Source: an uncultured Rhodospirillaceae bacterium (lineage in GTDB: Bacteria > Pseudomonadota > Alphaproteobacteria > SP197). Taken from it: a stretch of DNA of 35,698 nt. The notes below the pieces were generated by a model that searched no databases, had not been told where the DNA came from, and was given only the letters and a program-made list of their open reading frames with translations. The stretch lies in assembly GCA_937880925.1 (NCBI GenBank), contig CALGGB010000011.1, forward strand, positions 1 through 35,698, given 5' to 3'. Both the position numbers and the translations under genes were made by a program. This document shows, in pieces, positions 18,971 to 35,698 of the stretch (the first letter of the stretch is position 1; every line of letters starts with the position of its first letter).

Positions 18971-19879
18971 ATGGTCGTGGTGCTGAGTGGGGTCGTCGGA
19001 CAGACGCGTCTCTTCTGGGTTCTGCTGGCGCTGGCGCTGGCGGTCGCATGGAGCATGTCCGGTCTGATCTTCCGCCAGATCCAGGATGCCGATGCGGCCC
19101 AGATCATCTTCTACCGCGGCATCTCGCTATCGGTTGCCCTGTTCGGCTTCGTCTTCTGGCGTTATCGCGGACGCAGTTTCGCTGCCTTCCGGGCACTGGG
19201 TCCGGTCGGCGCCTTTGCGGCGCTGACCCTGGGCGGCTCCTCGATCTTCTATCTGTTCGCGCTGAAGGCGACGACCATCGCCAACATCGCCTTCCTCAAT
19301 GCCGCCACACCGTTCATCGCCGGAGGCCTGGCCTGGCTGCTGCTGCGCGAGGCGATGTCGCGGCTGACCGTGGTGGCGGTCTTGATCGCGCTTTCGGGCG
19401 TGGCGATCATGGTGTGGGAGGGTTTTGCGGTCGGAAGCTGGTTCGGCAACCTGATGGCGCTGACCGCCGTGGTGATTTCAGGCACCTATGTCGTGGCCCT
19501 GCGCTTCGGCAAGGGCGTCGATCTGATTCCGGCGGTAGCACTATCGGGCCTTGCCGCGGCAGTGATGGTGATACCGCTGATCGACGACTTCGCCATCTCG
19601 CTGCACGACCTGGCCTACTGCGTGCTGCAAGGTGTCTTCATCAGCGGCCTGTGCAACGGCCTCTATACCTTCTGCGCCCGGCACCTGCCCGCGGCGGAAC
19701 TGACCCTGCTGTCGCTGGCCGAATCCGTGCTCTCGCCGCTCTGGGTCTGGCTTTTCATCAACGAAGTCGCCAGCGACCTGACGCTGATCGGCGGCGCCGT
19801 GGTGCTCTCGGCGGTCGCCCTGCAGGCCTTCTGGCGGCCGATGTTCCTCACGCGGAGGCGCCGCCTGCCGGCGGCCTGA
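18971..19879 (+). CDS. DMT superfamily (EamA) transporter
   Basis: ~302 aa, ten hydrophobic segments; LYTFCARHLPAAELTLLSLAESVLSPLWVWLFINE is EamA-like. Confidence 0.87.
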   Translation: MVVVLSGVVGQTRLFWVLLALALAVAWSMSGLIFRQIQDADAAQIIFYRGISLSVALFGFVFWRYRGRSFAAFRALGPVGAFAALTLGGSSIFYLFALKATTIANIAFLNAATPFIAGGLAWLLLREAMSRLTVVAVLIALSGVAIMVWEGFAVGSWFGNLMALTAVVISGTYVVALRFGKGVDLIPAVALSGLAAAVMVIPLIDDFAISLHDLAYCVLQGVFISGLCNGLYTFCARHLPAAELTLLSLAESVLSPLWVWLFINEVASDLTLIGGAVVLSAVALQAFWRPMFLTRRRRLPAA

Positions 19880-20666
19880 ACCCTCGGGCCATACGCCGCT
19901 CGATCTCCTCGATCACCGGCAGGAGATCGGCCACCGTGTCGATGATGTAGTCGGGCTCGGCCACCGAGAGCGTCTCCTGCGCCCGCTTGCGCGCCTCCTC
20001 GACATGGGGCGCATCCGGGGTGGCGAGGTCCTCCAGTGCGATGCCCGCGGCATTGCCCGACAGCGCCAGACCGACGGTCCAGCTTCCCGCAGCACGGCCC
20101 TCCTGGATGCCGGGCACGGTGTCGTCCACCTTGACCACGGCAGAGACAGGCCAGACCTGCAGGTCGAGGAAGCATTTGTACATCATCATCGGGCTGGGGC
20201 GGCCGACCGGCAGGTCGTCGGCACAGACCAGGTTGTCGGGCCGGTAGCCCTGGTCGGCGGCGGCCTCCAGCACGGCCTCCATGACATCGCGGTTGTAGCC
20301 GGTGGAGGAGCCGATCTTCATGCCGCGCGTCCGCAGGGCGGCGGCGACCTCGGCGGCGCCGGGGATGAGATCGGTGAAACGTGCGACCACCGCGCGGTCG
20401 AGTTCGCGGAAGCGGGCAAAGAGGCGTTCGACGGCCGCCTCGTCGACCGCGCCGTTGCCTAGTACCCAGGCATCGGCCACGCGCGGCATGGCAAGCAGGG
20501 CGCGGATGTGGTCGATCTTGTTGAGGCCCATGGGTTCGCGCGCCTCGGCCTCGGTGATCTCGGTGCCGAACTCGGCAAAGAGCGTGCGAAAGGCCTCGAC
20601 CGGCGCGCGCGAGCCGAAATCGACCATGGTGCCGGCCCAGTCGAAGATCACCGCCTTGAGTGCCAT
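19848..20666 (-). CDS. phnX: Phosphonoacetaldehyde hydrolase (phosphonatase, HAD superfamily)
   Basis: MALKAVIFDWAGTMVDFGSRAPVEAF; Schiff-base-lysine region REPMGLNKIDHIRALL; IGSSTGYNRDVMEAVLEAAADQGYRPDNLVCADDLPVGRPSPMMMYKC; KVDDTVPGIQEGRAAG. Confidence 0.93.
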   Translation of the reverse strand: MALKAVIFDWAGTMVDFGSRAPVEAFRTLFAEFGTEITEAEAREPMGLNKIDHIRALLAMPRVADAWVLGNGAVDEAAVERLFARFRELDRAVVARFTDLIPGAAEVAAALRTRGMKIGSSTGYNRDVMEAVLEAAADQGYRPDNLVCADDLPVGRPSPMMMYKCFLDLQVWPVSAVVKVDDTVPGIQEGRAAGSWTVGLALSGNAAGIALEDLATPDAPHVEEARKRAQETLSVAEPDYIIDTVADLLPVIEEIERRMARGFRPPAGGASA

Positions 20667-20681
20667 CGGGTATCCTTCCGC

Positions 20682-21803
20682 TCAGTCGTAAAGGTCGGCC
20701 ATCGTCTCTTCGGCGATGGCAAAGGAGGTCGAGGCGCCGGTGCCGGAGGTGACCATCACCAGCCGGACGGCCGGCTCCGGCGCGTCCCTAAGCATCAGGC
20801 GCTCCCCGCCGGAGGCATAGATCCCGGTCCAGCGCTCGATCACCTCCGCATCGCCAATCGCCAGGGTCGCTGCAAGCTCATCGAGGATCAGAGAGTCGAC
20901 CGCCGCACTGGCGAAAGGTTCCGGAGTATCGGCATAGACATGGCTGTCGCCGACCACCAGCGAACCATCGGCCGAGGCGACGGCGATGAGATGGATTCCT
21001 GCTTCGGGGTAAGCCGGGCGCTCGGCGGCGATCCGCGCCTTCAGGGATCCCGCCTCCGGCAGCATGGCGTAGCCGTCGTAGCGGGCCAGCGTCAGGTCGC
21101 TCATGACCGGCAGGGCAAGCTGGAAGCTCTCCGCAGGACGCACGCGCAACATCTGCAGCAGGCATTTGGTGAGGCCGTAAGCCGCGATGCGCTCGGGGTA
21201 GAGGCCGAGGAAGTCCTCGCCGGGACAGACGATACAGGCTTCGGCCTCCAGCGGCCCGGTACTGGTCGCGATGCGCGGCAACGCGACCGCGTGCACCATC
21301 GCGCCGCGCCGGAAGGCTACGCCATGGGCCTGCTCCAGCCAGGCGGCGAGCTGCGGAATGGCGGTGCGCGATTCCACGCGCAGTTCGTGCGGGCTCCAAA
21401 GGGCGCCCAGCAGCCCATCGGTCAGTCCGGGACACAGGTCGTGTGCCTGGGCGGGGGAAAGGTGGCGGCAGCCCTCACCCATGTCGGTGGCAAGAAAGGC
21501 ATCGATCAGCGTCAGGCTTTCAGGATGCCGCGCAGTGACAAGCGAGCCGTGCTGGACAATCGGGATGCCCGCCAGCGGCGCCACCTCGGCCCAGACATCA
21601 CGGGAGCGGCGTGCACGGCGCCAGTGATCCCCTGCCCGTTGCCCGGTGACAGTGACAAAACCGAAGTTCCTCACCGAAGCCCCGTTGGCCTGGGCATCGC
21701 GGTCGATCACGACCACCGACAGCCCCCGGCGCACGGCCGCCAGGGCATGGGCCAGACCCAGGATACCGGCGCCGACGACGGCGAGATCGAAACGTTGCGT
21801 CAC
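20682..21803 (-). CDS. FAD-dependent oxidoreductase of the TIGR03364-like (phosphonate-associated) DAO group
   Basis: GTG start at 21803 (VTQRFDLAVVGAGILGLAHALAAVRRGL); ASVRNFGFVTVTGQ; directly upstream of phnX. ORF track extends to a TTG at 21842. Confidence 0.82.
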   Translation of the reverse strand: MTQRFDLAVVGAGILGLAHALAAVRRGLSVVVIDRDAQANGASVRNFGFVTVTGQRAGDHWRRARRSRDVWAEVAPLAGIPIVQHGSLVTARHPESLTLIDAFLATDMGEGCRHLSPAQAHDLCPGLTDGLLGALWSPHELRVESRTAIPQLAAWLEQAHGVAFRRGAMVHAVALPRIATSTGPLEAEACIVCPGEDFLGLYPERIAAYGLTKCLLQMLRVRPAESFQLALPVMSDLTLARYDGYAMLPEAGSLKARIAAERPAYPEAGIHLIAVASADGSLVVGDSHVYADTPEPFASAAVDSLILDELAATLAIGDAEVIERWTGIYASGGERLMLRDAPEPAVRLVMVTSGTGASTSFAIAEETMADLYD

Positions 21804-21872
21804 ATCACGGCCCCGGTTGGAGAACGCCTCCTCCTGCCACAAAAGCCATGACGGCTTCGTGACACCGGGCGT

Positions 21873-23294
21873 TCAGATCGAGAAACCGCCGAGCTTGGTC
21901 TCCAGATACTCGTCGATGCCTTCGGCGCCGCCCTCACGGCCCAGGCCGCTGTCCTTCATGCCGCCGAAGGGTGCGGCGGCCGAGGTCGGGTTGATGTCGT
22001 TGATGCCGATGATGCCGAAGTCCAGCGCCTCGAAGGTGCGGAAGGCGCGCGCGATGTCGCGGGTGTAGATATAGGCGGCAAGGCCGTAGTGAGTGTCGTT
22101 GGCCATGTCGATCGCCTGCTTCTCGTCGTCAAACGCGATGACCGGGGCGATGGGGCCGAAGGTTTCCTCGCGGTAGATCGCCATGTCCGGCGTGACGCCG
22201 GTGAGCACCGTGGGGGCAAAGAAGAAGCCGCGGTCGAGGCCGTTTTCGTTGAGGCGGTGGCCGCCGCAGACGACCTCGGCCCCCTTGGCGCGGGCGTCCT
22301 CGACCTGGCGGACCATCTTCTCCAGCGCCACCTCGTTGACCAGCGGGCCGATGGCGACCTTCTCGTCGAAGCCGCTGCCCGCGGTCATGCCCGAGACACG
22401 CTCGGCAAGTGTCGAAACGAAGGGCTCCAGGTTGTCGCGTTGCACGAAGATGCGGTTGGGGCTGATGCAGGCCTGGCCGGTGTTGAGAAACTTCACGAGC
22501 TGGCAGCCCTTGGCGGCATGCACGGGATCGGCATCGCCGAAGACCAGGAAGGGGGCGTGGCCGCCGAGCTCGCAGGAAACCCGCTTCATGTTGGCCGCCG
22601 CCTTGCCCGCCAGCATTTTGCCGACCGCGGTGGAGCCGGTGAAGGTGAGCTTCCTCACGCGGGGGTCGGAGACGAAGACCTCGCCCACGGGAGCCGGATC
22701 GCTGCAGGTGACGAGATTGACGACACCCTTGGGCACGCCGGCATCCTCGAAGACCTTCATCATGGCGATGGCGCAGAGCGGTGTGGCCTCGGCGGGCTTC
22801 AGCACCACGGTGCAGCCGGCGGCAAGCGCGGGGGCGAACTTCCGCGCGATCATGGAGATCGGATAGTTCCAGGGCGTGATCGCGGCGACGACGCCGACCG
22901 GTTGGCGCATGGCGAGGAAACGCTGGTCGCGCCGTGCCGATTGCACCGTGTGGCCCTGGACGCGCTTGGCCTCCTCGGCGTACCAGGCGAGGAAATCGGC
23001 GCCGTAGCCGACCTCGATCCGGGCCGCGCGGATGGGTTTGCCCATCTCGGACGTCATGGTGCGGGCGAGCTCCTCGCGCCGCTCCAGCATGATGGCGTGC
23101 GCCTTCTGGAGCACGGCAGCGCGCTCGTAGGCGGTGGCCCCGGCCCATCCGGCAAAGGCGGCATGGGCCGCGGCGATGGCGCGGCTGGCTTCCTCGGCGC
23201 CCCCGTCGGGCACGTCGCCGACGTGGCTGCCGTCGATGGGGCTGGTGACCGCGAAGGTCGAGGTGCCCTGTTCCCAGGCTCCGTCGATCAGCAT
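21873..23294 (-). CDS. NAD(P)-dependent aldehyde dehydrogenase (succinate-semialdehyde dehydrogenase-like)
   Basis: 473 aa; AAITPWNYPISMIARKFAPALAAGCTVVLKPAEATPL, FTGSTAVGKMLA, CELGGHAPFLVF, NTGQACISPNRIFVQ (catalytic Cys). Confidence 0.9.
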   Translation of the reverse strand: MLIDGAWEQGTSTFAVTSPIDGSHVGDVPDGGAEEASRAIAAAHAAFAGWAGATAYERAAVLQKAHAIMLERREELARTMTSEMGKPIRAARIEVGYGADFLAWYAEEAKRVQGHTVQSARRDQRFLAMRQPVGVVAAITPWNYPISMIARKFAPALAAGCTVVLKPAEATPLCAIAMMKVFEDAGVPKGVVNLVTCSDPAPVGEVFVSDPRVRKLTFTGSTAVGKMLAGKAAANMKRVSCELGGHAPFLVFGDADPVHAAKGCQLVKFLNTGQACISPNRIFVQRDNLEPFVSTLAERVSGMTAGSGFDEKVAIGPLVNEVALEKMVRQVEDARAKGAEVVCGGHRLNENGLDRGFFFAPTVLTGVTPDMAIYREETFGPIAPVIAFDDEKQAIDMANDTHYGLAAYIYTRDIARAFRTFEALDFGIIGINDINPTSAAAPFGGMKDSGLGREGGAEGIDEYLETKLGGFSI

Positions 23295-23306
23295 GGCGTC
23301 CCTCCC

Positions 23307-24056
23307 CTAGCCGCGTCCGATGAAGGGCATGTTGGTCGCCATGATGGTCATGAACTGAACATTGGTTTCCAGAGGCAGTTCCGACATCTGCAGCACGGCC
23401 TGGGCGACGTGGTTCACGTCGAAGACCGGCTCGGGCACCGTGGCGCCATGGGCCTGGAGCAGACCCTCCTTCATTTTCACGGTCATGGGCGTTTCGGCAT
23501 TGCCGATGTCGATCTGGCCGCAGGCGATGTTGTAGGGCCGGCCATCGAGCGAGGTCGAGCGGGTGAGGCCCGTGATGGCGTGTTTGGTCGCCGTATAGGG
23601 TGCAGAGAACGGGCGCGGCACATGGGCCGAGATCGAGCCGTTGTTGACGATGCGCCCGCCCATGGGGTCCTGGTGGCGCATCAGGCGAAAGGCCTCACGC
23701 GTGCAGAAGAAGACGCCGTTGAGGTTGGTGTCGACGACGCGCTTCCAGTCCTCGATCGAAAGTTCGTCCATGGGCACCGCCCTGGCGCCGATGCCGGCGT
23801 TGTTGAACAGCACATCCAGGCGCCCGAAGCGCTTCCGCGTCGCCTCGAACAGGGCGTGGACCTGATCGGCATCGGCGACGTCGGTGGGCACGGCCAGGCA
23901 GCGCTCGGCCGGCGCGCCGGATTCGGCGATGGTTTCCTCAAGGGGCCCGGCGCGGCGGCCGGCCAGGGTGACGCTGTAACCCGCGCCAAGGAAGGCAAGC
24001 GCGACAGCCTTGCCGATGCCGGTGCCCGCGCCGGTGACGATGGCGATCTTGGCCAT
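23307..24056 (-). CDS. SDR family oxidoreductase
   Basis: [26 protein letters not shown]...[12 protein letters not shown]. Confidence 0.9.
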
Positions 24057-24121
24057 GGGGAATCTCCGCTGAACGATGTGGCGCGGAGCCTAGAGCAAAA
24101 CGAAGCAGGATTGAACGCGAC

Positions 24122-25255
24122 TCAGGCGGTCAGGCGGCGGGCGAGCCAGCCGGCGAAATCGTGGTTTTCCTTTTCCAGCCAGGAAAGCGGGCCGGGTTCT
24201 GCCAGCGGCGAGGCCGTACCGGCGAACAGGGCCTCCACCACGTCGCGGTCCTCCAGGTTCACGTCCCAGAGGAAGTCGGTCGCATCCTTGATCAGGCGCT
24301 CGCGATCGTTGGCTGCGGCCAGCCGTTCGGGCGCAAACGCCACACCGTAGCGGATCGCCACCTGGCCGATGCCGCGCGGCTGCAGCGAGAGATACCAGAG
24401 GTGATCGGGCGCCAACACGTACATGTGACCGGGGAAGACGGTGGGCATCACCGAGGTGGTGCGCCAGCGCCCCGTCAGGCGGGTGTTGTCGGCATGTGCC
24501 GTGCCGATGGGGGCGTCGGTGGTCTTCTGGAAGAGCTGGTAGGTGAAGGCCTCGTGATCCTCCTTGCCGAACTCGGTCTCCTCGGCCGGAAAGTAGGCGC
24601 CGACGGTTTTCCGGTGGGTGACCGGCAGGTGGTAGCCCTCCATGAAGTTCTCGGTCAGCAGCTTCCAGTTGGTGTCCCACAGGTGGTCCTGGCGCAGGAC
24701 CTCGACATAATCCTCCATGTGATAGTCGGCAACGATCGCGCCCAGCGGCGCGAGCAGTTCGGCGACCGGGCGGGCCTGGGGATCGAGCGTCAGGTAGATC
24801 CAGCCGTGCCAGACCTCGCAGCGCACCGGGGCAAGGGCGATGCCGCCGGCATCGAAGGCCTGGCTGCGCTCCATGTGCCTGGCCGCGACCAGCTTGCCGT
24901 CGATGTCGTAGGTCCAGGCGTGATAGGGGCAGACGATGCGGCGGCAGTTGCCCTGGCCTTCCATCAGGCGGGTCATGCGGTGGCGGCAGACATTGGCGTG
25001 GGCGCGGACCGCACCCTTGCTGTCGCGGACCACCAGCACCGGCTGGTCGGCGATCTGCCAGGAGAACCAGTCGCCCTTGTCGGGGATGGACTCGGCGCGC
25101 CCGGCGCACTGCCAGTCGCGACGGAAGATGCGGTCCTGCTCCAGCGCGGCGATACCGGGGTCATGGTACATGCCCGGAGGCATGGCAAGCGCGGCCTCCA
25201 GTGGCCGTTGCGCAAGGGCCTCGATCCGATCAAGCAGGTGCGAGGTCGTCGACAT
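24122..25255 (-). CDS. Rieske oxygenase alpha subunit (copy 3)
   Basis: CRHRMTRLMEGQGNCRRIVCPYHAWTYDIDG; NWKLLTENFMEGYHLPVTH. Confidence 0.9.
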   Translation of the reverse strand: MSTTSHLLDRIEALAQRPLEAALAMPPGMYHDPGIAALEQDRIFRRDWQCAGRAESIPDKGDWFSWQIADQPVLVVRDSKGAVRAHANVCRHRMTRLMEGQGNCRRIVCPYHAWTYDIDGKLVAARHMERSQAFDAGGIALAPVRCEVWHGWIYLTLDPQARPVAELLAPLGAIVADYHMEDYVEVLRQDHLWDTNWKLLTENFMEGYHLPVTHRKTVGAYFPAEETEFGKEDHEAFTYQLFQKTTDAPIGTAHADNTRLTGRWRTTSVMPTVFPGHMYVLAPDHLWYLSLQPRGIGQVAIRYGVAFAPERLAAANDRERLIKDATDFLWDVNLEDRDVVEALFAGTASPLAEPGPLSWLEKENHDFAGWLARRLTA

Positions 25256-25403
25256 GGGTTCGGGCAGTTCCGCTTCGAGGCGCCGTGGCGCGTTGGTCGC
25301 CCTCAGTATTCACGAACCAGAAGGCGATGATACTCTGATCTTCCTATTCAGTTCATAGCCGGGCGCTATCTGCGGCCAGCCGCAACGTCAGAGGGGAACA
25401 CGC

Positions 25404-26456
25404 ATGGCCGCGCGCAAGCCCCGCGTACTGTACCTGCTCCAGGAGTACCCGCAGGTCTCCGAAACCTACATCGCCAACGAGCTGGAGGCGCTGTGGCAGA
25501 GCTGCGACATCCGCATCGTGGCGCGCACCCATGCCAGCGCCAGCTACGAGGATCACTTTCCCTTCACGGTCATCGCCAAGGAAGACCATGAGACGCTGGC
25601 GGCACTGGCCGCCGAGTTCCGTCCGGACATCGTCCACGCCCACTACCTGCACAACGCCGTTACCGCCCACAATCTGGCGGCCCGGATCGGCGGCGCATTC
25701 ACCGTGCGCCTGCATTCCTTCGACGTGTTGAAACCCCTGCCCGGAAGCCTGCGTCTTTCCGTTGCGGCGATCAACGGACCGGCCTGCGCGGGGGCGCTGA
25801 CCTTCCCCTTCACCATGGAGCGGATGCTGGCGGCCGGTACCAATCCGAAGAAGCTGCATGCGGCGCCGCCGGTGCTGCGCATCGACCGCTTCCTGGATCG
25901 CGGCCCCAACGGCAATGCGATCATGAACACGGGTGCGGCGCTGCCCAAGAAGAACATGGAGGCCTATATCGACCTCGCAGCGGCCATGCCCGCGCGGCGC
26001 TTCAACCTCTACGCCATGGGTTACGATGTGTCTGACCTGAAGGCCCACAACATGTCACGCGGCAATCCCGTGCGTCTTGTACCGCCGGTCGCGCCGCGCG
26101 CCATGCCGGGAGAATACAAGAAGCACGAATGGCTGGTGTACACGGCGTCCCCCACGATCAACACGGTGGGCTGGCCCATGGCCGTGGCCGAGGCGCAGGC
26201 AAGCGGCGTGGGCGTGGTCATGCAGGATATCCGCCCGGATCTGCGCGAATGGGTCGGACCGGCAGGCTACATGTTCCGCACGATCGAGGAGGCCGCCGCA
26301 ATCATCGCCCGGCCTTTCCCCGCCGAGCGCCGCGAAGCCGGGTTCGCCCAGGCGCAGGCCTGGGACTTCAGCCGGCACCTGGGCACCCTGGTCAAGCTCT
26401 GGAGCGCGGCCCTTGCCCGGCCCAGGCGGGGCAAGGGCAAGCCCAATCCCGCCTGA
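25404..26456 (+). CDS. Glycosyltransferase (GT4-like, GT-B fold)
   Basis: RKPRVLYLLQEYPQVSETYIANELEAL; DIVHAHYLHNAVTAHNLAARIGGAFTVRLHSFD; WPMAVAEAQASGVGVVMQDIRPDLREWVGPAGYMF. SD-like AGGGGA precedes ATG. Confidence 0.8.
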   Translation: MAARKPRVLYLLQEYPQVSETYIANELEALWQSCDIRIVARTHASASYEDHFPFTVIAKEDHETLAALAAEFRPDIVHAHYLHNAVTAHNLAARIGGAFTVRLHSFDVLKPLPGSLRLSVAAINGPACAGALTFPFTMERMLAAGTNPKKLHAAPPVLRIDRFLDRGPNGNAIMNTGAALPKKNMEAYIDLAAAMPARRFNLYAMGYDVSDLKAHNMSRGNPVRLVPPVAPRAMPGEYKKHEWLVYTASPTINTVGWPMAVAEAQASGVGVVMQDIRPDLREWVGPAGYMFRTIEEAAAIIARPFPAERREAGFAQAQAWDFSRHLGTLVKLWSAALARPRRGKGKPNPA

Positions 26457-26533
26457 ACCATCGCCCGGCGGCGATTGCAGCAGATCAAACGCGCACCTAT
26501 GGTGACGCCCGAAATCGAGGGAGCACGGGCCGT

Positions 26534-27718
26534 TTGGAACAGTTCGCGATCACGTCCTGGGGCAGCGGGCTGACGCGGGGCAAGCAGTTCGATGTCGCCG
26601 TCGTCATTCCCACAGTGCTGCGTCCCAGCCTTGCCCGCGCCCTGCGCTCGGTCTTCGCCCAGGATATCGACGGCACGGTTCAGATCCTGATCGGCGTCGA
26701 TGCCCACGAGGGCAGTGCCGATATCGCAGCCGAAAGCGCCCATCTGCCGCCCAACATGGCGATCACCGTGATCGATCCCGGCTACTCCACCGCACGCAAC
26801 CGGGGCGGCCTGCACGATGCCCTGGGCGGCAGCCTGCGCGCCGCACTGAGCTTGCTGGCCCATGCCCGCTACGTCGCCTATCTCGATGACGATTGCTGGT
26901 GGGCGCCCCACCACCTTTCCAGCCTGCACGAGACGATCCAGACCCGCGACTGGGCCTATGGGTTGCGCTACTACGTCGGGCCCGCCGCGCCGCTGCCCCT
27001 GGGCATCGATACCTTCGAATCGGTAGGCCCGAACCTTGGCAGCTATGCCAAGAACGAAGGCGGTTTTTGCGACACCAACACGCTGATGATCGACAAGACC
27101 CGGTGCGAGGCTGCGATCCTGCGCTGGAGTCGGGCACAACGGGGCCATCCCAGCGGACGGGGCGCCGATCGCGTGGTCTTTGCCGCCCTGCTCGAACACG
27201 AGAAATACGGCGGGACCGGAAAGCCGACCGCCTATTACGAGATCAGCGAAAACGACAACATGCACGATGCGCGCATCGGCTTTCTGCGCAAGGAGCTGAA
27301 GCCCCTGGAGGGTTATGAGCGCTTCGCCCGTGGCGACTATCTGAGCGCTGCGGTCAATTTCTATCGCCACGCCTATCTGACACACAATCCCCCTTACGGC
27401 ATGGCCTGGGCCTGTTGCGCCCTGCTCCGCATGGGCGATCGGCGGACGGCAGCCAGGCTGTCGACGCAGTTCGGTGCCGCCACGGACGATCCCTGCTGGC
27501 AGGCCCTGACGGCGCAGCAGTCGCCTGAACTTGAGGCCCAGGATGCGACAACGGCTTGCCGCATGGCCTTTTTCCGCAGCCAGCGCCTGATCGCCGATGG
27601 CGATCGCGAAGGCGGGGCCCGCTGGCTGCGGCGGGCACTGCAGACCGGCGGGCCTGACCAGCCGGAGCGCATCGTGGCCCAGGCGGAACTGGAGAGGATG
27701 GACAGGAAGGCAGGCTGA
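26534..27718 (+). CDS. Family 2 glycosyltransferase
   Basis: Likely TTG start 26534 (LEQFAITSWGSGLTRGKQFDVAVVIPTVLRPSLARALRSVFAQDI); YLDDDCWWAPHHLSSL (DxD). The listed ORF from 26129 overlaps the preceding gene. Confidence 0.75.
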   Translation: MEQFAITSWGSGLTRGKQFDVAVVIPTVLRPSLARALRSVFAQDIDGTVQILIGVDAHEGSADIAAESAHLPPNMAITVIDPGYSTARNRGGLHDALGGSLRAALSLLAHARYVAYLDDDCWWAPHHLSSLHETIQTRDWAYGLRYYVGPAAPLPLGIDTFESVGPNLGSYAKNEGGFCDTNTLMIDKTRCEAAILRWSRAQRGHPSGRGADRVVFAALLEHEKYGGTGKPTAYYEISENDNMHDARIGFLRKELKPLEGYERFARGDYLSAAVNFYRHAYLTHNPPYGMAWACCALLRMGDRRTAARLSTQFGAATDDPCWQALTAQQSPELEAQDATTACRMAFFRSQRLIADGDREGGARWLRRALQTGGPDQPERIVAQAELERMDRKAG

Positions 27719-27730
27719 GGGCGCTTGTGC

Positions 27731-29446
27731 TCAGGCGAAGCGTTCGCGCAAGGTCGCCGCTATGCGCTCATAAACCGGCTGCCAGGCGCGAATGGCCGGC
27801 TGCCGGAACAGCCGCATGGTGGGATACCAGGGGCTGTCCTCGCGATCGATCAGCCAGCGCCAGTCGGGCGAGAACGGCATCAGGACCCAGACCTCCTTGC
27901 CCAGCGCGCCGGCCGTGTGGGCAAGGGAAGTGTCGACCGACACCACCAGATCCATCAGCGATGTCAGCGCCAGGGCGTCGTGCATGTCTTCGGAGTGTTC
28001 GGCCAGATTGACGACGCGCGAGGCATCCAGGTCGGCCTGATCGATCTCGCGCACGGGACGCTGCAGCACCACCAGGTCGGCGTCGATGCCGTCGAACATG
28101 GCGAGCATCTCTGTGAAGCGGATCGACCGATTGTGATCGTTGGGATGGGTCGGATCACCAGACCAGGCAAGCCCTATGCGCGGCCTGTCCCCCTTGGGAC
28201 CGAAGGCTTCCTCGACGCGGTGGCGCCAGAGTTTCAGGCGCTCCTCTTGCGGGAAGAGATAGGGCACATCGGCCGGAATCGTCTGACCCAGGGTGTGGCG
28301 CAGCGCATGGGGCAGACTGCCCAGCGGGGCATGCAGGTCAAACCTGGGAATGCGTGTCTTGTTGTAGACGACCTCCGCATCGGAGGGGAAACAGGGGTGC
28401 AGGGATTCCGCCCTCTGCTGCAGTCCCAGCAGGATACGGCCGCCCAGGGCACAGACATGGGGAACGTAGCGCAGGAACTGGATGGAATCGCCGATGCCCT
28501 GCTCCCCGTGGAGCAGCAGGGTCTTGCCTTCCAACGGCTCGTCACCCAGCCAGAGCGGCTCCTTGAACACCGGATGGCCCGCTGCCTCCTTGCGTTCCCA
28601 GCGCACCTCATAGGTTTCCCAGCCCAGTGCATAATCGCCCATGCGCAGCGCATTGAGCGAGAGATTCCACTTGGCCTCGATCATGTCGGGCTTGATCTCA
28701 AGCGCCCGGCGGAAGCAAACCATGGCCTCCTCGTAGCGGCCCATGTTGCCGTACTGGCGACCCAGCGCATTCTGCGCCTCGGGGTTGTCGGGCTTCAGCT
28801 CCACGGCCTTCAGGAAGGCCTGTTCGGCTTCCTCGAAATTACCGTTGAGCTGCAGGGCATCACCGAAAACAAGCCAGCCTTCAACCCGCTCGGGGCCTGC
28901 TTCAACCGCGCGACGGCCGACCGCCACCGCACGCTCTGACTTGCGTGCCGAAACCAGGGTTGCCGTGGCACCGATCAGTGTCGCGACATCGGAGGGTTTG
29001 ATGGCCAGGGCGGTGCGAAACGCCCGCAGGGCCGAACCGTGTTTGCCGAGCGCCTGATAGGCAAAGCCCATCCCGCGGTGGGCGCGATAGGATTCAGGGC
29101 CGATCGCGACGGCCTTGGCGAACATGTCCACCGCGCCCTGATTGCGACCCAGGGCAACAAGGGACCGCCCCGCGCGAACAGCAGAATCAACGTGGTCGGG
29201 TCGCTGGCGCAAAGACGCCAGCAGAGAAGAATATGCGGCCTCGTTGTCGCCCTTCTGCGCCAGCGCGACACCGCGCAGATACAGCGGCCCCGCCTCGAAC
29301 GGCAGGCGTTGGATCAATCGATCCAGATCGGCCAGAGCACCATCGGTATCGCCGGACTTCAGCCGCGCCAGGATTGCGGCCTGGGCCCGGTCAAGCGGGG
29401 ATGCCGCCTTGGCGCGAGCCTCGCCGGTCTCAGCGTCCGCTGGCAC
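27731..29446 (-). CDS. TPR-repeat protein with C-terminal GT9-like glycosyltransferase domain
   Basis: Several TPR units (AEQAFLKAVELKPDNPEAQNALGRQYGNMGRYEEAMVCFRRALEIKPD); C-terminal LLLHGEQGIGDSIQFLRYVPHV, DLVVSVDTSLAHTAGALGKEVWVLMPFSPDWRWLIDREDSPWYPTMRLFRQ. GTG start at 29446 overlaps the 3' end of the TIGR03032-like remnant. Confidence 0.82.
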   Translation of the reverse strand: MPADAETGEARAKAASPLDRAQAAILARLKSGDTDGALADLDRLIQRLPFEAGPLYLRGVALAQKGDNEAAYSSLLASLRQRPDHVDSAVRAGRSLVALGRNQGAVDMFAKAVAIGPESYRAHRGMGFAYQALGKHGSALRAFRTALAIKPSDVATLIGATATLVSARKSERAVAVGRRAVEAGPERVEGWLVFGDALQLNGNFEEAEQAFLKAVELKPDNPEAQNALGRQYGNMGRYEEAMVCFRRALEIKPDMIEAKWNLSLNALRMGDYALGWETYEVRWERKEAAGHPVFKEPLWLGDEPLEGKTLLLHGEQGIGDSIQFLRYVPHVCALGGRILLGLQQRAESLHPCFPSDAEVVYNKTRIPRFDLHAPLGSLPHALRHTLGQTIPADVPYLFPQEERLKLWRHRVEEAFGPKGDRPRIGLAWSGDPTHPNDHNRSIRFTEMLAMFDGIDADLVVLQRPVREIDQADLDASRVVNLAEHSEDMHDALALTSLMDLVVSVDTSLAHTAGALGKEVWVLMPFSPDWRWLIDREDSPWYPTMRLFRQPAIRAWQPVYERIAATLRERFA

Positions 29447-29975
29447 CGGGAGGCATCGACAGCACACGACGAATCTCGTCGGTGCGGAAACCCAGGGCGG
29501 CGGGTCGCGTAGAGCCCGGCAGGACCGCCACGTCGTACATCTCCTCAATGATCGAATCGAAGCGCAGCCAGTGGACGGCATCGCCCGTGTTGAGGTCGAT
29601 CACCGAGATGCCGCAGCGCGCCTCGACACCGGCCTTCTTCAGGCGGTCGTCGAGCGCCAGGCCTGAGAACGTGCCGTCGCGCGGCTTGGAGGTTGCCACC
29701 ACGGCAAAGTTGTTGATGAACGACATGCCGCGCAGGTAGCCCGGGATGAAGGCGATGGGCTCGAACTTGCCTGTCGCGAGATCGACCTTGCCGAACTCCC
29801 CCTGCCCGGAATTCAGGACATAGAGCGTACCGTTGTGAACACGCGGCGAGTGGGGCATCGAAAGGCCGGTACAGGCCATTTCGCCCGACTGGACATCGAC
29901 CACCACGCCGCCGCTCTGGCGATGTTCGCGCCAGCCGTCGGCGACGTCGGTACGACCCACGGCCGAGACGAACCG
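29430..29975 (-). pseudogene. TIGR03032-like protein, N-terminally truncated (C-terminal portion only)
   Basis: FVSAVGRTDVADGWREHRQSGGVVVDVQSGEMACTGLSMPHSPRVHNGTLYVLNSGQGEFGKVDLATGKFEPIAFIPGYLRGMSF...DVAVLPGSTRPAALGFRTDEIRRVLSM; the upstream half of the family is absent. 5' boundary approximate. Confidence 0.65.
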
Positions 29976-29981
29976 GCGCCG

Positions 29982-30154
29982 GCATCGCCGTGCGCAGGAA
30001 CAGACCCGAGGTCTTCGTCAAGGCGTTGATGCAGATGCGCGAGCGGCGGTCGGACCACATCAAGGCCGCGCGCGAGCGGAGCGCAGCCTGGCGCCAATCG
30101 CAGTCACTGGCGCGCCTGGTCACCATCATCGAGCAGAAGATGATCGCTGCCTGA
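29982..30154 (+). pseudogene. C-terminal remnant of a probable glycosyltransferase (GT4-like tail), N-terminus missing
   Basis: Frame ending at TGA 30152-30154: GIAVRRNRPEVFVKALMQMRERRSDHIKAARERSAAWRQSQSLARLVTIIEQKMIAA*, strongly GC3-biased. Not in the supplied ORF track because it has no full start. Confidence 0.5.
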
Positions 30155-30238
30155 GGCAACGGCCAGTTCTCGCGCCTTGCCATGGCTCGGCCTCTGGCCC
30201 ATCAATGGCCACCCGCCGAGCGATCCAACGGAACCGCC

Positions 30239-31645
30239 ATGAGCGCCGATACCCCGAACACGTCCCGCAGGGAAAAATTCAAGGCGGTCTTCGAGGCCGC
30301 CGTCGAGGCATCGAAGGCCGGCAACTACACAGAGGCACTCGAAGGCTTCAGCAAGGCGCTGGTCTTTTCACCGCGCTCCCTGCCGGCGATGCGCTATCTG
30401 GGCGACACCCTGTTCAAGCAGGAGCGCTACGAAGAGGCGCTGGCCTGTTTCCGGCGGGCGCTTGACGAAAAACCCGACCATGTCGTGAGTCTGCTGAACC
30501 TGGGCCTCGTGCTGCGCAAGCTATGGCGCTTCGAGGAGGCGGCCGCCGCGCTGGAACACGCCCACGCCTTGGCACCGCGCGACACCCGCGTCCTGTTCCA
30601 CTGGGCACTCTCGCTGAAGGACGCCGGCCGCCTGAGCGAAGCAGAGCAACGCTTCCGCCAGACCGTGGAGATCAAACCGGACCACTACGATGCGGAGGTC
30701 GCGCGCGCCATGTGCCTGCTGCTCGACGGCCGCTACAAGGAAGGCTGGGACGCCTACGAGATCCGCTGGAAGCTGAAGGTGACGCCCGAGCCGCGCTATC
30801 AGGACCGGCAGTGGGACGGCAAGCCGGTCAAGGGACCGATCTTCCTCTCCAGCGAACAGGGCTTCGGCGACACCATCATGTTCTGCCGCTTCGCCCGCTT
30901 CGTGCGCGAACGCTGCGACCGGGTGATCCTGGAGAGCCAGAAGCAGCTCAGGAATCTGCTGACCGACGTCGAGGGCATCGACGACATCGTGGTGCAGAAG
31001 GAAACCGTGCCGCCCTTCGCGCGCCACGCCTATCTGCTCTCCCTGCCCCGCCTTCTGGACCTGACACCCGAAACCATTCCTGCACCGGTGCCCTACATCC
31101 ACGCCACGCCCGAGCGCCGAGCCTGGGCGGCCAACATGATGAAGGTGCTGGGGCCGCTGGTGCGCGTCGGCATCACCTGGGCGGGCAATCCCAAATACGG
31201 CCGCGACCGTGAACGTTCGATCGAACCGCGCCATATCCTGGAACTGCTGGAGGCTCGCGGCATCGCCCTGCTCAGCCTGCAGAAGGGCGCCCCGGTCGAA
31301 CAGCTGGGCGAACTGGGCTGCCAGTCGCTGATTTCCAACCTCGACCGCCAGATCAACGATTTCACCGATACCGCCGCAATCGTCTCGCAGCTCGACATCG
31401 TGGTCACCTGCGACAGCGCCGTGGCTCATCTGGCCGGCGCCATGGGCAAGCCGGTCTGGGTCGCCGTGCCCTATGCCCCGGACTGGCGCTGGTTCCTGGG
31501 CCGCGAGGATACGCCCTGGTATCCCACCATGCGTCTCTTCCGCCAGAGCCACCCTGGCGACTGGGACGGCGTCTTCCGCCGCATCGGCAAGGATTTGGCC
31601 GTGTTTGCCGACAACCTGCGAACGCAGCGCGCCGCTGCCGGCTGA
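30239..31645 (+). CDS. TPR-repeat protein with C-terminal GT9-like glycosyltransferase domain (paralog of 27731..29446)
   Basis: MSADTPNTSRREKFKAVFEAAVEASKAGNYTEALEGFSKALVFSPRSLPAM...; FLSSEQGFGDTIMFCRFARFV; DIVVTCDSAVAHLAGAMGKPVWVAVPYAPDWRWFLGREDTPWYPTMRLFRQ. Confidence 0.85.
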   Translation: MSADTPNTSRREKFKAVFEAAVEASKAGNYTEALEGFSKALVFSPRSLPAMRYLGDTLFKQERYEEALACFRRALDEKPDHVVSLLNLGLVLRKLWRFEEAAAALEHAHALAPRDTRVLFHWALSLKDAGRLSEAEQRFRQTVEIKPDHYDAEVARAMCLLLDGRYKEGWDAYEIRWKLKVTPEPRYQDRQWDGKPVKGPIFLSSEQGFGDTIMFCRFARFVRERCDRVILESQKQLRNLLTDVEGIDDIVVQKETVPPFARHAYLLSLPRLLDLTPETIPAPVPYIHATPERRAWAANMMKVLGPLVRVGITWAGNPKYGRDRERSIEPRHILELLEARGIALLSLQKGAPVEQLGELGCQSLISNLDRQINDFTDTAAIVSQLDIVVTCDSAVAHLAGAMGKPVWVAVPYAPDWRWFLGREDTPWYPTMRLFRQSHPGDWDGVFRRIGKDLAVFADNLRTQRAAAG

Positions 31646-31658
31646 GCCTCGCTGCCGC

Positions 31659-32318
31659 CTAGCCTGCCCACATGCGCAGCAGGTTCTGGTGGCAACGCAT
31701 CAGCAGATCATAGGCATCGTTCTGACGCGGCCGCTCGAACTCCCCGCTGAGCGCGGCAAGGTCCGACAGGATCCGGCGGCGCTCCGATTCCCGTACGGCG
31801 CTTTGCAGCCACAACACACAGGCCAGGCGCTCACCGCGGGTGACCGGCAGCACCTGATGGGGAAACAGCGTGGGGTAGAACACCGCATGGCCCGCGGGCA
31901 GGCGGATGCGCTGACGGCCATAATCGCTTTCGATCTCGAGTTCACCGCCGTCGTAACTCTCGGCTTCGCTGAGGAACAGCGTCATCGAGATGTCGGAACG
32001 CAGCCTGTTCTGCTGGGCCATCGCCAGGTCGAGATGGCGGCCGTAGTGCATGCCTTCGCGATAGAGGCTGAGGATCGGCGGCGTGATGTATTTGGGCAGG
32101 ATGGTGTCGCTGACCCTGCCGCTGCGACCGATTGCACCCTGAACGATTTCGCGCACGCGTGCCTGGGCCTGGCTGTCGATCATTTCCAGGTTGTCCTTGG
32201 CCCCCTTGAGATGACGGCCGGTCGTTGCCTTGCCGGAACCGAATCCGCCGGCTTGGGCGATGGCGCGCAGCCCTTCGAGTTCCTCGCGATTCACGAGATC
32301 GGGGATCACGACAATCAT
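31659..32318 (-). CDS. Fe(II)/2OG-dependent PKHD-type hydroxylase (PiuC/YbiX-like)
   Basis: MIVVIPDLVNREELEGLRAIAQ; HxD in GMHYGRHLDLAMAQQNRLRSDISMTLFLSEAESYDGGELEIESDYGRQRIRLPAGHAVFYPTLFPHQVLPVTRGERLACVLWLQS. Confidence 0.9.
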   Translation of the reverse strand: MIVVIPDLVNREELEGLRAIAQAGGFGSGKATTGRHLKGAKDNLEMIDSQAQARVREIVQGAIGRSGRVSDTILPKYITPPILSLYREGMHYGRHLDLAMAQQNRLRSDISMTLFLSEAESYDGGELEIESDYGRQRIRLPAGHAVFYPTLFPHQVLPVTRGERLACVLWLQSAVRESERRRILSDLAALSGEFERPRQNDAYDLLMRCHQNLLRMWAG

Positions 32319-32340
32319 GAGCTGCCTCCGGGTACGCGGA

Positions 32341-33636
32341 TCATGAGAGTTCAAGCCGCTTGCCGTTGCAGGCAGCCCAGTTGACGAGCGGTTCGAAGCG
32401 GCCGGCCTTGACCAGATGAAAGTCGATGTTGTGATCGCTCAGGCCCTCCAGAGGATGGAGCGAAACACAGGGATGGGCATCCAGGATCAACGGCATTTCG
32501 GCATCGGTGGGGAAACCCTCGCCATAGACGCAGGCGATCTCCGGCGGCGATGCGCTGTCCGAGATCCGCGCCAGCAGTTCCTCGGCCCTCTGCCTGCGGC
32601 GCGCGGCTTCGGAGGGATCGTCGTAGGGCGTTTCGCGATCGTCGCGCTCGACGGCGCCGGCGGCCCAGACGACCCGGTCGGCGCCGATCGCCAGCGCCGT
32701 TTCCACCGCCGGGATGCCGCCCATGCTGATGCCGTAGATGCCGGTCCGCGTGGCCCCCAGCTCGTCGGCCAGGCTGCGCAGAAAGACGTGCATGTCCTCA
32801 ACCTTGCCCCCCGCCTCGCGCGTCAGGGAAGCGATGCCCGTGCGGTAGAAATTGCGACGCAGGTCCTTGAGGTAGACGATGTGCGCATCGGTGCGCGAAG
32901 CCCAGCGATGGAAGGTGCCGATCGGCGTTCCCATCCGCCCGAACATGCCGGCAAAACAGATGAGCAGGCGGCTGCACGACGGATCGCTCGATCGCGCGAG
33001 CTGGATATCGGCCGACCAGTGGTCGCGGAAGTCGTCGTGAGGCAATCGTGGGGGCACCTGCTCAAGGCCCGAGGCGACCTGTTCCAGAAAGGTGATCCTG
33101 GGATACTGGTCGGCGATGTGGCGCGCCAGGGCGCGGGCATCCTCCGGCTCACAATGGTCAAGCAGCCAGACGATGGCGTAGGCCCAGAGCAACGGCGACG
33201 TCACGCCCATTCGCGGCATCTTCCCCGCCTGCAGGAGGCCGTACAGATAGAGACCGCCCAGCACCGGATTGAGATTGCGCGCGACAACCTCCTGGCGCAG
33301 CAACGGCATCAGCCGGCGACGCCAGACCGGGCGGCGCAACAGGGCAAAGACGACGCGCCGGATGTGCTCGTCGCGATAACGCGGCCCCAGACACTCGACG
33401 CACAGGGCCAGCGCATCGCCCAGGCGCCCCTCGGTCAGGAGCGCGCGCAGCGGTCCGGTATGATCGGTCCCGTCCGGATGCGCAACAAACTGAACCGTCG
33501 GGCGCAACGTGCCTTCCCGGTCGCGCGCCTGTGCCATACGTCGCGCCAGGGCCTGAGGCCCTTCCTCCGACTGCAGCAGATTTCCCCGGCGTGACGAACG
33601 GTCGGCTGAGACCGAATTGTCGAGCGGTTCGTTCAT
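32341..33636 (-). CDS. Alpha/beta-hydrolase-like protein with ~200-aa helical N-terminal region
   Basis: Start at MNEPLDNSVSADRSSRRGN. Nucleophile elbow TGIYGISMGGIPAVETALAIGADRVVWAAGAVE; LEGLSDHNIDFHLVKAGRF (candidate catalytic His). Upstream part of the 683-aa ORF is antisense to the sulfotransferase and discounted. Confidence 0.7.
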   Translation of the reverse strand: MNEPLDNSVSADRSSRRGNLLQSEEGPQALARRMAQARDREGTLRPTVQFVAHPDGTDHTGPLRALLTEGRLGDALALCVECLGPRYRDEHIRRVVFALLRRPVWRRRLMPLLRQEVVARNLNPVLGGLYLYGLLQAGKMPRMGVTSPLLWAYAIVWLLDHCEPEDARALARHIADQYPRITFLEQVASGLEQVPPRLPHDDFRDHWSADIQLARSSDPSCSRLLICFAGMFGRMGTPIGTFHRWASRTDAHIVYLKDLRRNFYRTGIASLTREAGGKVEDMHVFLRSLADELGATRTGIYGISMGGIPAVETALAIGADRVVWAAGAVERDDRETPYDDPSEAARRRQRAEELLARISDSASPPEIACVYGEGFPTDAEMPLILDAHPCVSLHPLEGLSDHNIDFHLVKAGRFEPLVNWAACNGKRLELS

Positions 33637-33750
33637 GGTGTAAGGGGCACTCCAACAGGGGCTGGCCGCGGAGCGGCGGACCGGGCGCCTGATCGAACGG
33701 CGACAAGGCGATGGCGAAAGCTGCCGTCGCAGCAGAATGGATGGGCGGCC

Positions 33751-34584
33751 ATGCAACGCTTCTTCGTCAGTGGATTTCCAAAGTCGGGTACCATATTCCT
33801 GCAGATGCTGCTGGACTCCCATGCCAACATCAACTGCCCCAGCGAACAGAATCTCTCCTACCTGTTCCAGCATCTCTTCAAGCTGTCGACCAACTACCGT
33901 CGCGTCATCAAGGAGATGGACCGCAAGACGGGCGGCCAGGGCCTGCGCTACGAGGCCCAGGCATTCTTTGCCGCAGCCATGCGCGCCTCGGTGGTCAACC
34001 TGATGGAATCGGGCGCCAGGCAGACCGACACCCACTTCGGCATCAACGACAACATGATGGCCTCCCATGGCGACCTGGTCGCCCGGCTGATGCCGCGCAC
34101 GCGGTTCATCTTCATCGTGCGCGACCCGCGCGAGGTCGCCGTCTCGCTCTGGCATCACAAGTTGCGCACCGAACCACCGTTCGCGCGCCGCTCGCCGCCC
34201 ATTACCGAGACCGTGGCCTTCACGGCGCGGGCCTGGCCGGAGTATCTCGCCAAGATGGAGGCGTTCCGCGACAAGTGGCCGCGCCGCTGTCACTTCGTGC
34301 GCTATGAGGATCTGCGCGGCAGCGATCGCGACCGCCATCTGACCGCCATGCTGCAGTTCCTCGAAGCACCGGCAACCGCCGCGACCGTGCAAGACATGTG
34401 GCGGGCAACCGACTTTGAAGCCCTGCGCTCGCGCGAAAAGGACAAGGACGGCGAGAAAGCCGGCTTCTTCCGTTCGGGCAAGACCGACAGCTGGCGCGAC
34501 GAGGTGCCGCCCGAGGCCATCGAAAGCCTGATGCAGTCGGTCACACCGACGATGAAGCGGCTGGGCTACATCCTGACCGACTGA
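33751..34584 (+). CDS. Sulfotransferase domain protein (PAPS-dependent)
   Basis: 5'-PSB-like MQRFFVSGFPKSGTIFLQMLL; 3'-PB-like RFIFIVRDPREVAVSLWHHKL; RYEDLRG; 277 aa. Confidence 0.9.
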   Translation: MQRFFVSGFPKSGTIFLQMLLDSHANINCPSEQNLSYLFQHLFKLSTNYRRVIKEMDRKTGGQGLRYEAQAFFAAAMRASVVNLMESGARQTDTHFGINDNMMASHGDLVARLMPRTRFIFIVRDPREVAVSLWHHKLRTEPPFARRSPPITETVAFTARAWPEYLAKMEAFRDKWPRRCHFVRYEDLRGSDRDRHLTAMLQFLEAPATAATVQDMWRATDFEALRSREKDKDGEKAGFFRSGKTDSWRDEVPPEAIESLMQSVTPTMKRLGYILTD

Positions 34585-34596
34585 TCCCGTTGCCGC

Positions 34597-35698
34597 TCAG
34601 GCGCCTTCAGCGGCAAGCTCCGGCGGGCGGAAGGCGGCGACCGCGGGTGCCGCACCCCCGAAACGCTCGACCTCGACCAGACAGGTATGCGCGCTGGGGC
34701 CCTGTGCCAGGCGCGAGGTTCCCTTGTCCAGGGTCAGCACATTGGGGTTGCCGTGGCGACACAGCGGCGCGTCCGCCTGACTGTCGACAGGGTCGTACCA
34801 GGCGCCGGTCGGCAGACGCACCACACCCCGGCGCACCGCAGGCGTTACCACCGCACCGGCCAGGCAGGCGCCGCGGTCGTTGAAGAGGCGCACCACATCA
34901 CCATCGGCGATGCCGCGTGATACCGCGTCCTCGGGGTGGAGCCACACGGCTTCGCGCCCGGCGACCTTCCCGGCCCGACTGGTGGCGCCGTTATCGTACT
35001 GGCTGTGCAGCTTTCCGGCCGGCTGGCACGAAATCAGGTGCAGCGGATGGCGCCCCGTGCCCTCCCCGCCCAGCCACTCGGCGGGTTCCATCCAGACCGC
35101 ATGGCCCGGACAGTCGTCGTAGCCGAAGCCGGCAATGGTCTGCGAAAAGATCTCGATCCGGCCCGAAGGCGTGGCCAGCGGATTCGCCACGGGGTCGTCG
35201 CGGAACGGGGCAAACATCACCTGCTCGCGGTCCGGTGCCGGCAGGCTGAAGACCCCCTCCTCCCAGAAGCGGTCGAAGTCGGGCATCTCGATACCCTGCT
35301 CGGCAGCACGCTGGCGGCCGCGGTCGTAGAGATGGCGCAGCCATTCCATCTCGCTGCGGCCCTCGGTGAAGGTCTCGGCAAAGCCCAGGCGTTCGGCGAG
35401 GCCGGCGAAGATGTCGTGGTCGTTGCGCGCCTGGCCCACCGGTGCGACCGCCCGATGCATGGCGAAGAGATCGCCCTCGCGGGAGGAACCCGAGAAGTCG
35501 TTGCGCTCCAGGGTGGTGGTTGCGGGCAGGACAATGTCGCAGTGGCGCGCCAGCGGGTTCCACCAGGGCTCGTGGCACACCACGGTCTCCGGGCGCTGCC
35601 AGGCACGGCGCAGACGGTTGAGGTCCTGATGGTGATGGAAGGGGTTGCCGCCGGTCCAGTAAACCATGCGGATATCGGGATAGGTCACCCGCCGGCCA
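34597..35698 (-). CDS. Molybdopterin-dependent oxidoreductase (DMSO reductase family), C-terminal part; 5' end outside window
   Basis: VYWTGGNPFHHHQDLNRLRRAWQRPETVVCHEPWWNPLARHCDIVLPATTTLERND; HLISCQPAGKLHSQYDNG; C-terminal VRLFNDRGACLAGAVVTPAVRRGVVRLPTGAWYDP. Frame stays open to the window edge. Confidence 0.9.
   Translation of the reverse strand, partial: GRRVTYPDIRMVYWTGGNPFHHHQDLNRLRRAWQRPETVVCHEPWWNPLARHCDIVLPATTTLERNDFSGSSREGDLFAMHRAVAPVGQARNDHDIFAGLAERLGFAETFTEGRSEMEWLRHLYDRGRQRAAEQGIEMPDFDRFWEEGVFSLPAPDREQVMFAPFRDDPVANPLATPSGRIEIFSQTIAGFGYDDCPGHAVWMEPAEWLGGEGTGRHPLHLISCQPAGKLHSQYDNGATSRAGKVAGREAVWLHPEDAVSRGIADGDVVRLFNDRGACLAGAVVTPAVRRGVVRLPTGAWYDPVDSQADAPLCRHGNPNVLTLDKGTSRLAQGPSAHTCLVEVERFGGAAPAVAAFRPPELAAEGA

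Follow-up and report, generated by a model that had tools for sequence, protein, structure and literature searches.

A half-length TIGR03032/DUF4915 gene at a probable rearrangement joint in a variable block of glycan genes

The window analysed here is the whole of contig C11 of the genome assembly G000 (35,698 bases), and it contains a gene of the TIGR03032/DUF4915 hypothetical protein family of which only the C-terminal half is present. The half-gene ends sharply at a point where the coding signal also changes strand, and the missing half is absent from the assembly. The explanation that we favour, and regard as reasonably probable, is that a variable block of surface-glycan genes recently underwent an illegitimate deletion or rearrangement, which left two gene remnants. 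Such an event would have removed the 5' half of the TIGR03032/DUF4915 gene and then joined the rest head to head with the remaining 3' part of a second coding sequence on the other strand, possibly helped by a short palindrome serving as microhomology. The joint would then be real DNA that arose by deletion and not by inversion, and both pieces would presumably now be non-functional.

Table 1. Features around the junction, with positions in the window
Feature	Position	Strand	Basis or remark
Variable block of glycan-type genes, ~7.5 kb	26456..34000 (approximate borders)	.	Without orthologous sequence in G001
GT2	26.5-27.7 kb		Glycan block
TPR-repeat protein with GT9-like C-terminus	27731..29450	-	TPR_2 E=3e-28, weak Glyco_transf_9
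C-terminal half of TIGR03032/DUF4915 family gene	29433..29981	-	Profile matches; ~160 N-terminal residues gone
Junction core CCGGCGCCGG, perfect 10-bp palindrome	29973..29982	.	Sequence
Coding-like 59-codon frame ending in TGA, GT4-like in appearance only	29975..30154	+	Coding signal switch at junction
Second TPR and GT9-like protein, paralogue	30239..31645	+	TPR_2 E=3.8e-22, Glyco_transf_9 E=2.4e-4; putative ATG start
2OG-Fe(II) oxygenase	31.7-32.4 kb		Glycan block
Coding-like gene without Pfam match	32341-33650	-	Codon signal; GIYGISMGGIPAVETAL
Sulfotransferase	33.75-34.58 kb		Block edge

The minus-strand frame 29433-30017, closed by a stop codon at 29430-29432, matches positions 163-334 of the 335 in the TIGR03032 profile (223.1 bits, E=4.6e-66) and positions 156-316 of the 316 in DUF4915 (PF16261, E=2.1e-66), bearing out the original prediction of a TIGR03032-like C-terminal half beyond which resemblance is lost. 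Since the match is confined to positions 163-334, the score falls short of the curated whole-protein cut-off for TIGR03032 (251.5 bits). Resemblance ends within about 10 bases of 29972-29981, and the opening 12-15 residues of the frame have no equivalent in homologues; nearly all alignments from the ~89 homologous loci start at residues 10-17 of the frame, and full-length homologues align to the window from base 29972 leftwards and no further. Upstream of that point the full-length homologues carry the strongly conserved AEDRCHLNGLA, which is absent from the window. Homologues sharing the start point were sought as a refutation of the truncation, and 0 of the ~89 loci were found to start there. 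The window copy is therefore like the family in its C-terminal half (E about 1e-66) and unlike it in lacking about 162 N-terminal profile positions, AEDRCHLNGLA among them.

A search of the whole G000 assembly with the TIGR03032 profile returned this C-terminal half as the sole match, with the N-terminal half on no contig, and the other minus-strand frames at the locus gave no match to TIGR03032. A frameshift in place of a truncation was ruled out, since the N-terminal sequence is missing from every frame at the locus, those upstream included, and from the assembly. The evidence is strong that the minus-strand gene has lost its 5' half. What is left of the gene retains 58 of the 63 positions conserved among intact TIGR03032 homologues and is therefore hardly decayed, which points to either a recent event or an assembly artefact at the joint.

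A codon-usage model trained on ~113 kb of the G000 genome moves the coding signal from the minus to the plus strand inside about 29970-30000, with the minus frame positive up to ~29970 and the plus frame ending at 30154 favoured from ~29971. Taken together, the homologue ends and this switch place the originally proposed junction coordinates (29,975-29,985) correctly to within ~10 bases. Codon usage on both sides of the junction falls inside the spread shown by the other genes of the window. The palindrome at its core fits both reading frames, as closing codons of the minus-strand gene and as opening codons of the plus-strand one, and is a possible microhomology at the joint, to which we give little weight because the same 10-mer is found elsewhere in the window and its frequency is only mildly unexpected (two occurrences, against 0.54 expected in shuffled sequences). 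Inverted and direct repeats were sought around the junction and none of note was found; exact matches between the junction region and the rest of the assembly reach 18 bases at most.

On the plus strand, the coding-like frame said to abut the half-gene does take over the codon signal, but that signal is weak. The 54-residue open reading frame from the GTG at 29990 reaches 3.6 bits once a 5-bit handicap is deducted, and over the first 90 bases one minus-strand frame scores nearly as well, which makes the reading of this strand as coding probable rather than proved. The description of the frame as a glycosyltransferase C-terminus fared less well. The 59-residue fragment had no match in Pfam (at E<=10), in the PDB or among plasmids, gave only meaningless matches in NCBIfam, and found nothing convincing in 60 relatives and 289 genomes of the class; weak matches in relatives (L093, L094, L096, L098 and L100) fall within reading frames that seem to have nothing to do with it. 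Nine GT4 C-termini from related genomes were combined into a profile, which gave the fragment 3.4 bits, a score exceeded by several of 1000 shuffles, and comparison with GT4 loci of its own genome (plus-strand matches and the window's own GT4 gene) gave nothing above chance. There is a visual likeness to the C-termini of GT4 glycosyltransferases (PF00534/PF13692) in GAGIAV...PE.F..AL...R...AARERSAAW, but it is without statistical support. Membership of GT4 is thus not supported by the sequence, although it may still hold, because the C-termini of this class diverge quickly.

Several candidate sources for the plus-strand piece were considered and set aside. The contig ends of C278 and C109 each cut a GT4 gene and might have held the missing GT4 half, but at both the equivalent position is read through with different sequence. 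A 34-base match at G000:C95, which reads FGDGAGIAVRQEDTELKDAL and by eye resembles a solute-binding protein, was taken as coincidence. Nor is a divergent upstream glycosyltransferase common to TIGR03032 homologues: in the L021 locus that place is taken by a solute-binding protein, and no glycosyltransferase came from the remaining upstream frames tested. With no parent gene identified, 5' truncation of the plus-strand piece is not proved; its status as a truncated gene is suggested by the way its frame abuts the junction, so that only the minus-strand member of the proposed pair of 5'-truncated genes is strongly supported. Similarly, a rearrangement endpoint or chimera, as first suggested, is the natural explanation for the lost 5' half, but the more specific proposal of a deletion that removed both starts of divergent neighbours was not borne out, no related locus with such a pair having appeared in a limited neighbour search.

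The gene following the half-gene on its own strand encodes the first of two TPR-GT9 proteins; it lies directly downstream, its open frame overlaps the truncated gene and its start codon is not fixed. The same order, with TPR-GT9-like matches after TIGR03032 on the same strand, is found in the homologous loci L021, L032 and L042. On the other side a non-coding gap separates the plus-strand fragment from the second TPR-GT9 gene at about 30239, the product of which is 44-46% identical to tandem copies on G000:C184 and G001:C140. These tandem pairs of TPR-GT9-like paralogues, at L134 (G000:C184, 4268-6987) and L135 (G001:C140, 8865-11656), are related to the window's two TPR-GT9 genes. In the minus-strand gene at 32341-33650, GIYGISMGGIPAVETAL suggests, by eye, an alpha/beta-hydrolase fold.

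Comparison with G001, a genome of the same genus, gives the extent of the block. Contig C87 of G001 aligns to window positions 19019-26422 at 84% identity and contig C188 to 33998-35691 at 82%, and between the equivalents of 26422 and 33998 G001 has paralogous matches only and no orthologous block. Both flanking contigs end at the block borders (L181, G001:C188 1-62; L136, G001:C87 1-60). On the reverse strand, bases 1-62 of C188 encode PAYVRSDNGPEFVAEAVRRW, which we take to resemble a DDE transposase of IS3 type; since the contig begins inside the sulfotransferase gene with this transposase-like sequence, that gene appears to be interrupted by a mobile element in G001. With no orthologous block in G001 and a transposase-like edge, the block probably differs among members of the genus, and mobile elements may plausibly be at work in it. 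Its absence from G001 is read from the lack of a matching contig and not from an empty site, and could reflect an unassembled stretch.

TIGR03032 itself is patchy across the group, occurring in 7 of 61 genomes, and is absent from G001. In a genome of the same family, the near full-length copy at L004/L138 (G003:C12, ~9077-10045 of L138) is interrupted in frame by two stop codons, TGA and TAG, and for this reason looks like a pseudogene too. In two other assemblies the match to TIGR03032 begins only at about residue 135 (L068, from 2909) and about residue 267 (L007, from ~1501), so that the breakpoint of the gene seems to differ from genome to genome.

A recent rearrangement is favoured because the half-profile match stops sharply at the junction while homologues run on upstream, because G000 holds no other TIGR03032 sequence, because the codon signal changes strand at the same place and because so many of the conserved positions are intact. 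The lack of an orthologous block in G001, with contigs ending at its edges and one of them transposase-like, the patchiness of TIGR03032 and the want of any long repeat that would invite a misjoin argue in the same direction. The case is weakened by the nature of the assembly, since G000 (4.3 Mb, 91% complete, 3.5% contamination) is most likely a draft metagenome-assembled genome, and by the near-absence of decay, which would suit a chimera equally. An assembly or library chimera of two strands or loci from the same population, in which the real genome would carry an intact TIGR03032 gene, is accordingly the chief competing account, to which we give some credence while doubting it: the draft is in 323 contigs, the fragment is almost undecayed and the sharp joint falls in a variable, multi-paralogue block of the kind where assemblies break, as that of G001 does at both edges, but the contig-end GT4 genes of C278 and C109 do not run into the window fragment, and codon usage on either side is in keeping with that of the window's other genes. 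Misassembly inside the binned genome is disfavoured because no exact repeat at the junction exceeds 18 bases and the missing half is on no G000 contig; the joint may nevertheless be a chimera with an unbinned strain.

An inversion endpoint, at which a flipped arm would have joined two distant half-genes and left their other halves at a reciprocal junction elsewhere, we consider improbable. The head-to-head geometry, the palindromic core and the paralogous TPR-GT9 genes that flank the joint in opposite orientation would fit it, but no reciprocal junction with the TIGR03032 N-terminal half is in the assembly, though the assembly may lack ~9% of the genome. Least credible of all is a natural functional arrangement, with a half-length TIGR03032 protein translated as a stand-alone module from an internal GTG (29960) and kept beside its TPR-GT9 partner and a 54-residue gene from the GTG at 29990: both frames are stop-free and conservation of the TIGR03032 fragment is still good, but no homologue starts at the truncation point, shortened frames in other genomes (L004/L138, L048, L060, L068, L007) break off at a stop codon, a contig edge or another place, and the 54-residue frame has barely any coding score and no convincing homologue.

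Whether by rearrangement or as a chimera, the junction has an ordinary explanation, and there is no sign in it of a novel class of element. It resembles the pseudogene remnants at rearrangement scars in the glycan biosynthesis islands of draft genomes in its 5'-truncated remnant and sharp joint, in the variable block without orthologue in a close relative and in the mobile-element-like trace at the edge of that relative's block, and no feature was found in the window to distinguish it from them. TIGR03032 and DUF4915 are nowhere mentioned in the open-access literature searched, so that the function of the family looks open, and the window fragment gives no help in resolving it. An annotation should record the locus as a truncated gene, with a misassembly possible, and not as a short intact gene, and the junction serves to mark a variable glycan block in the genus.
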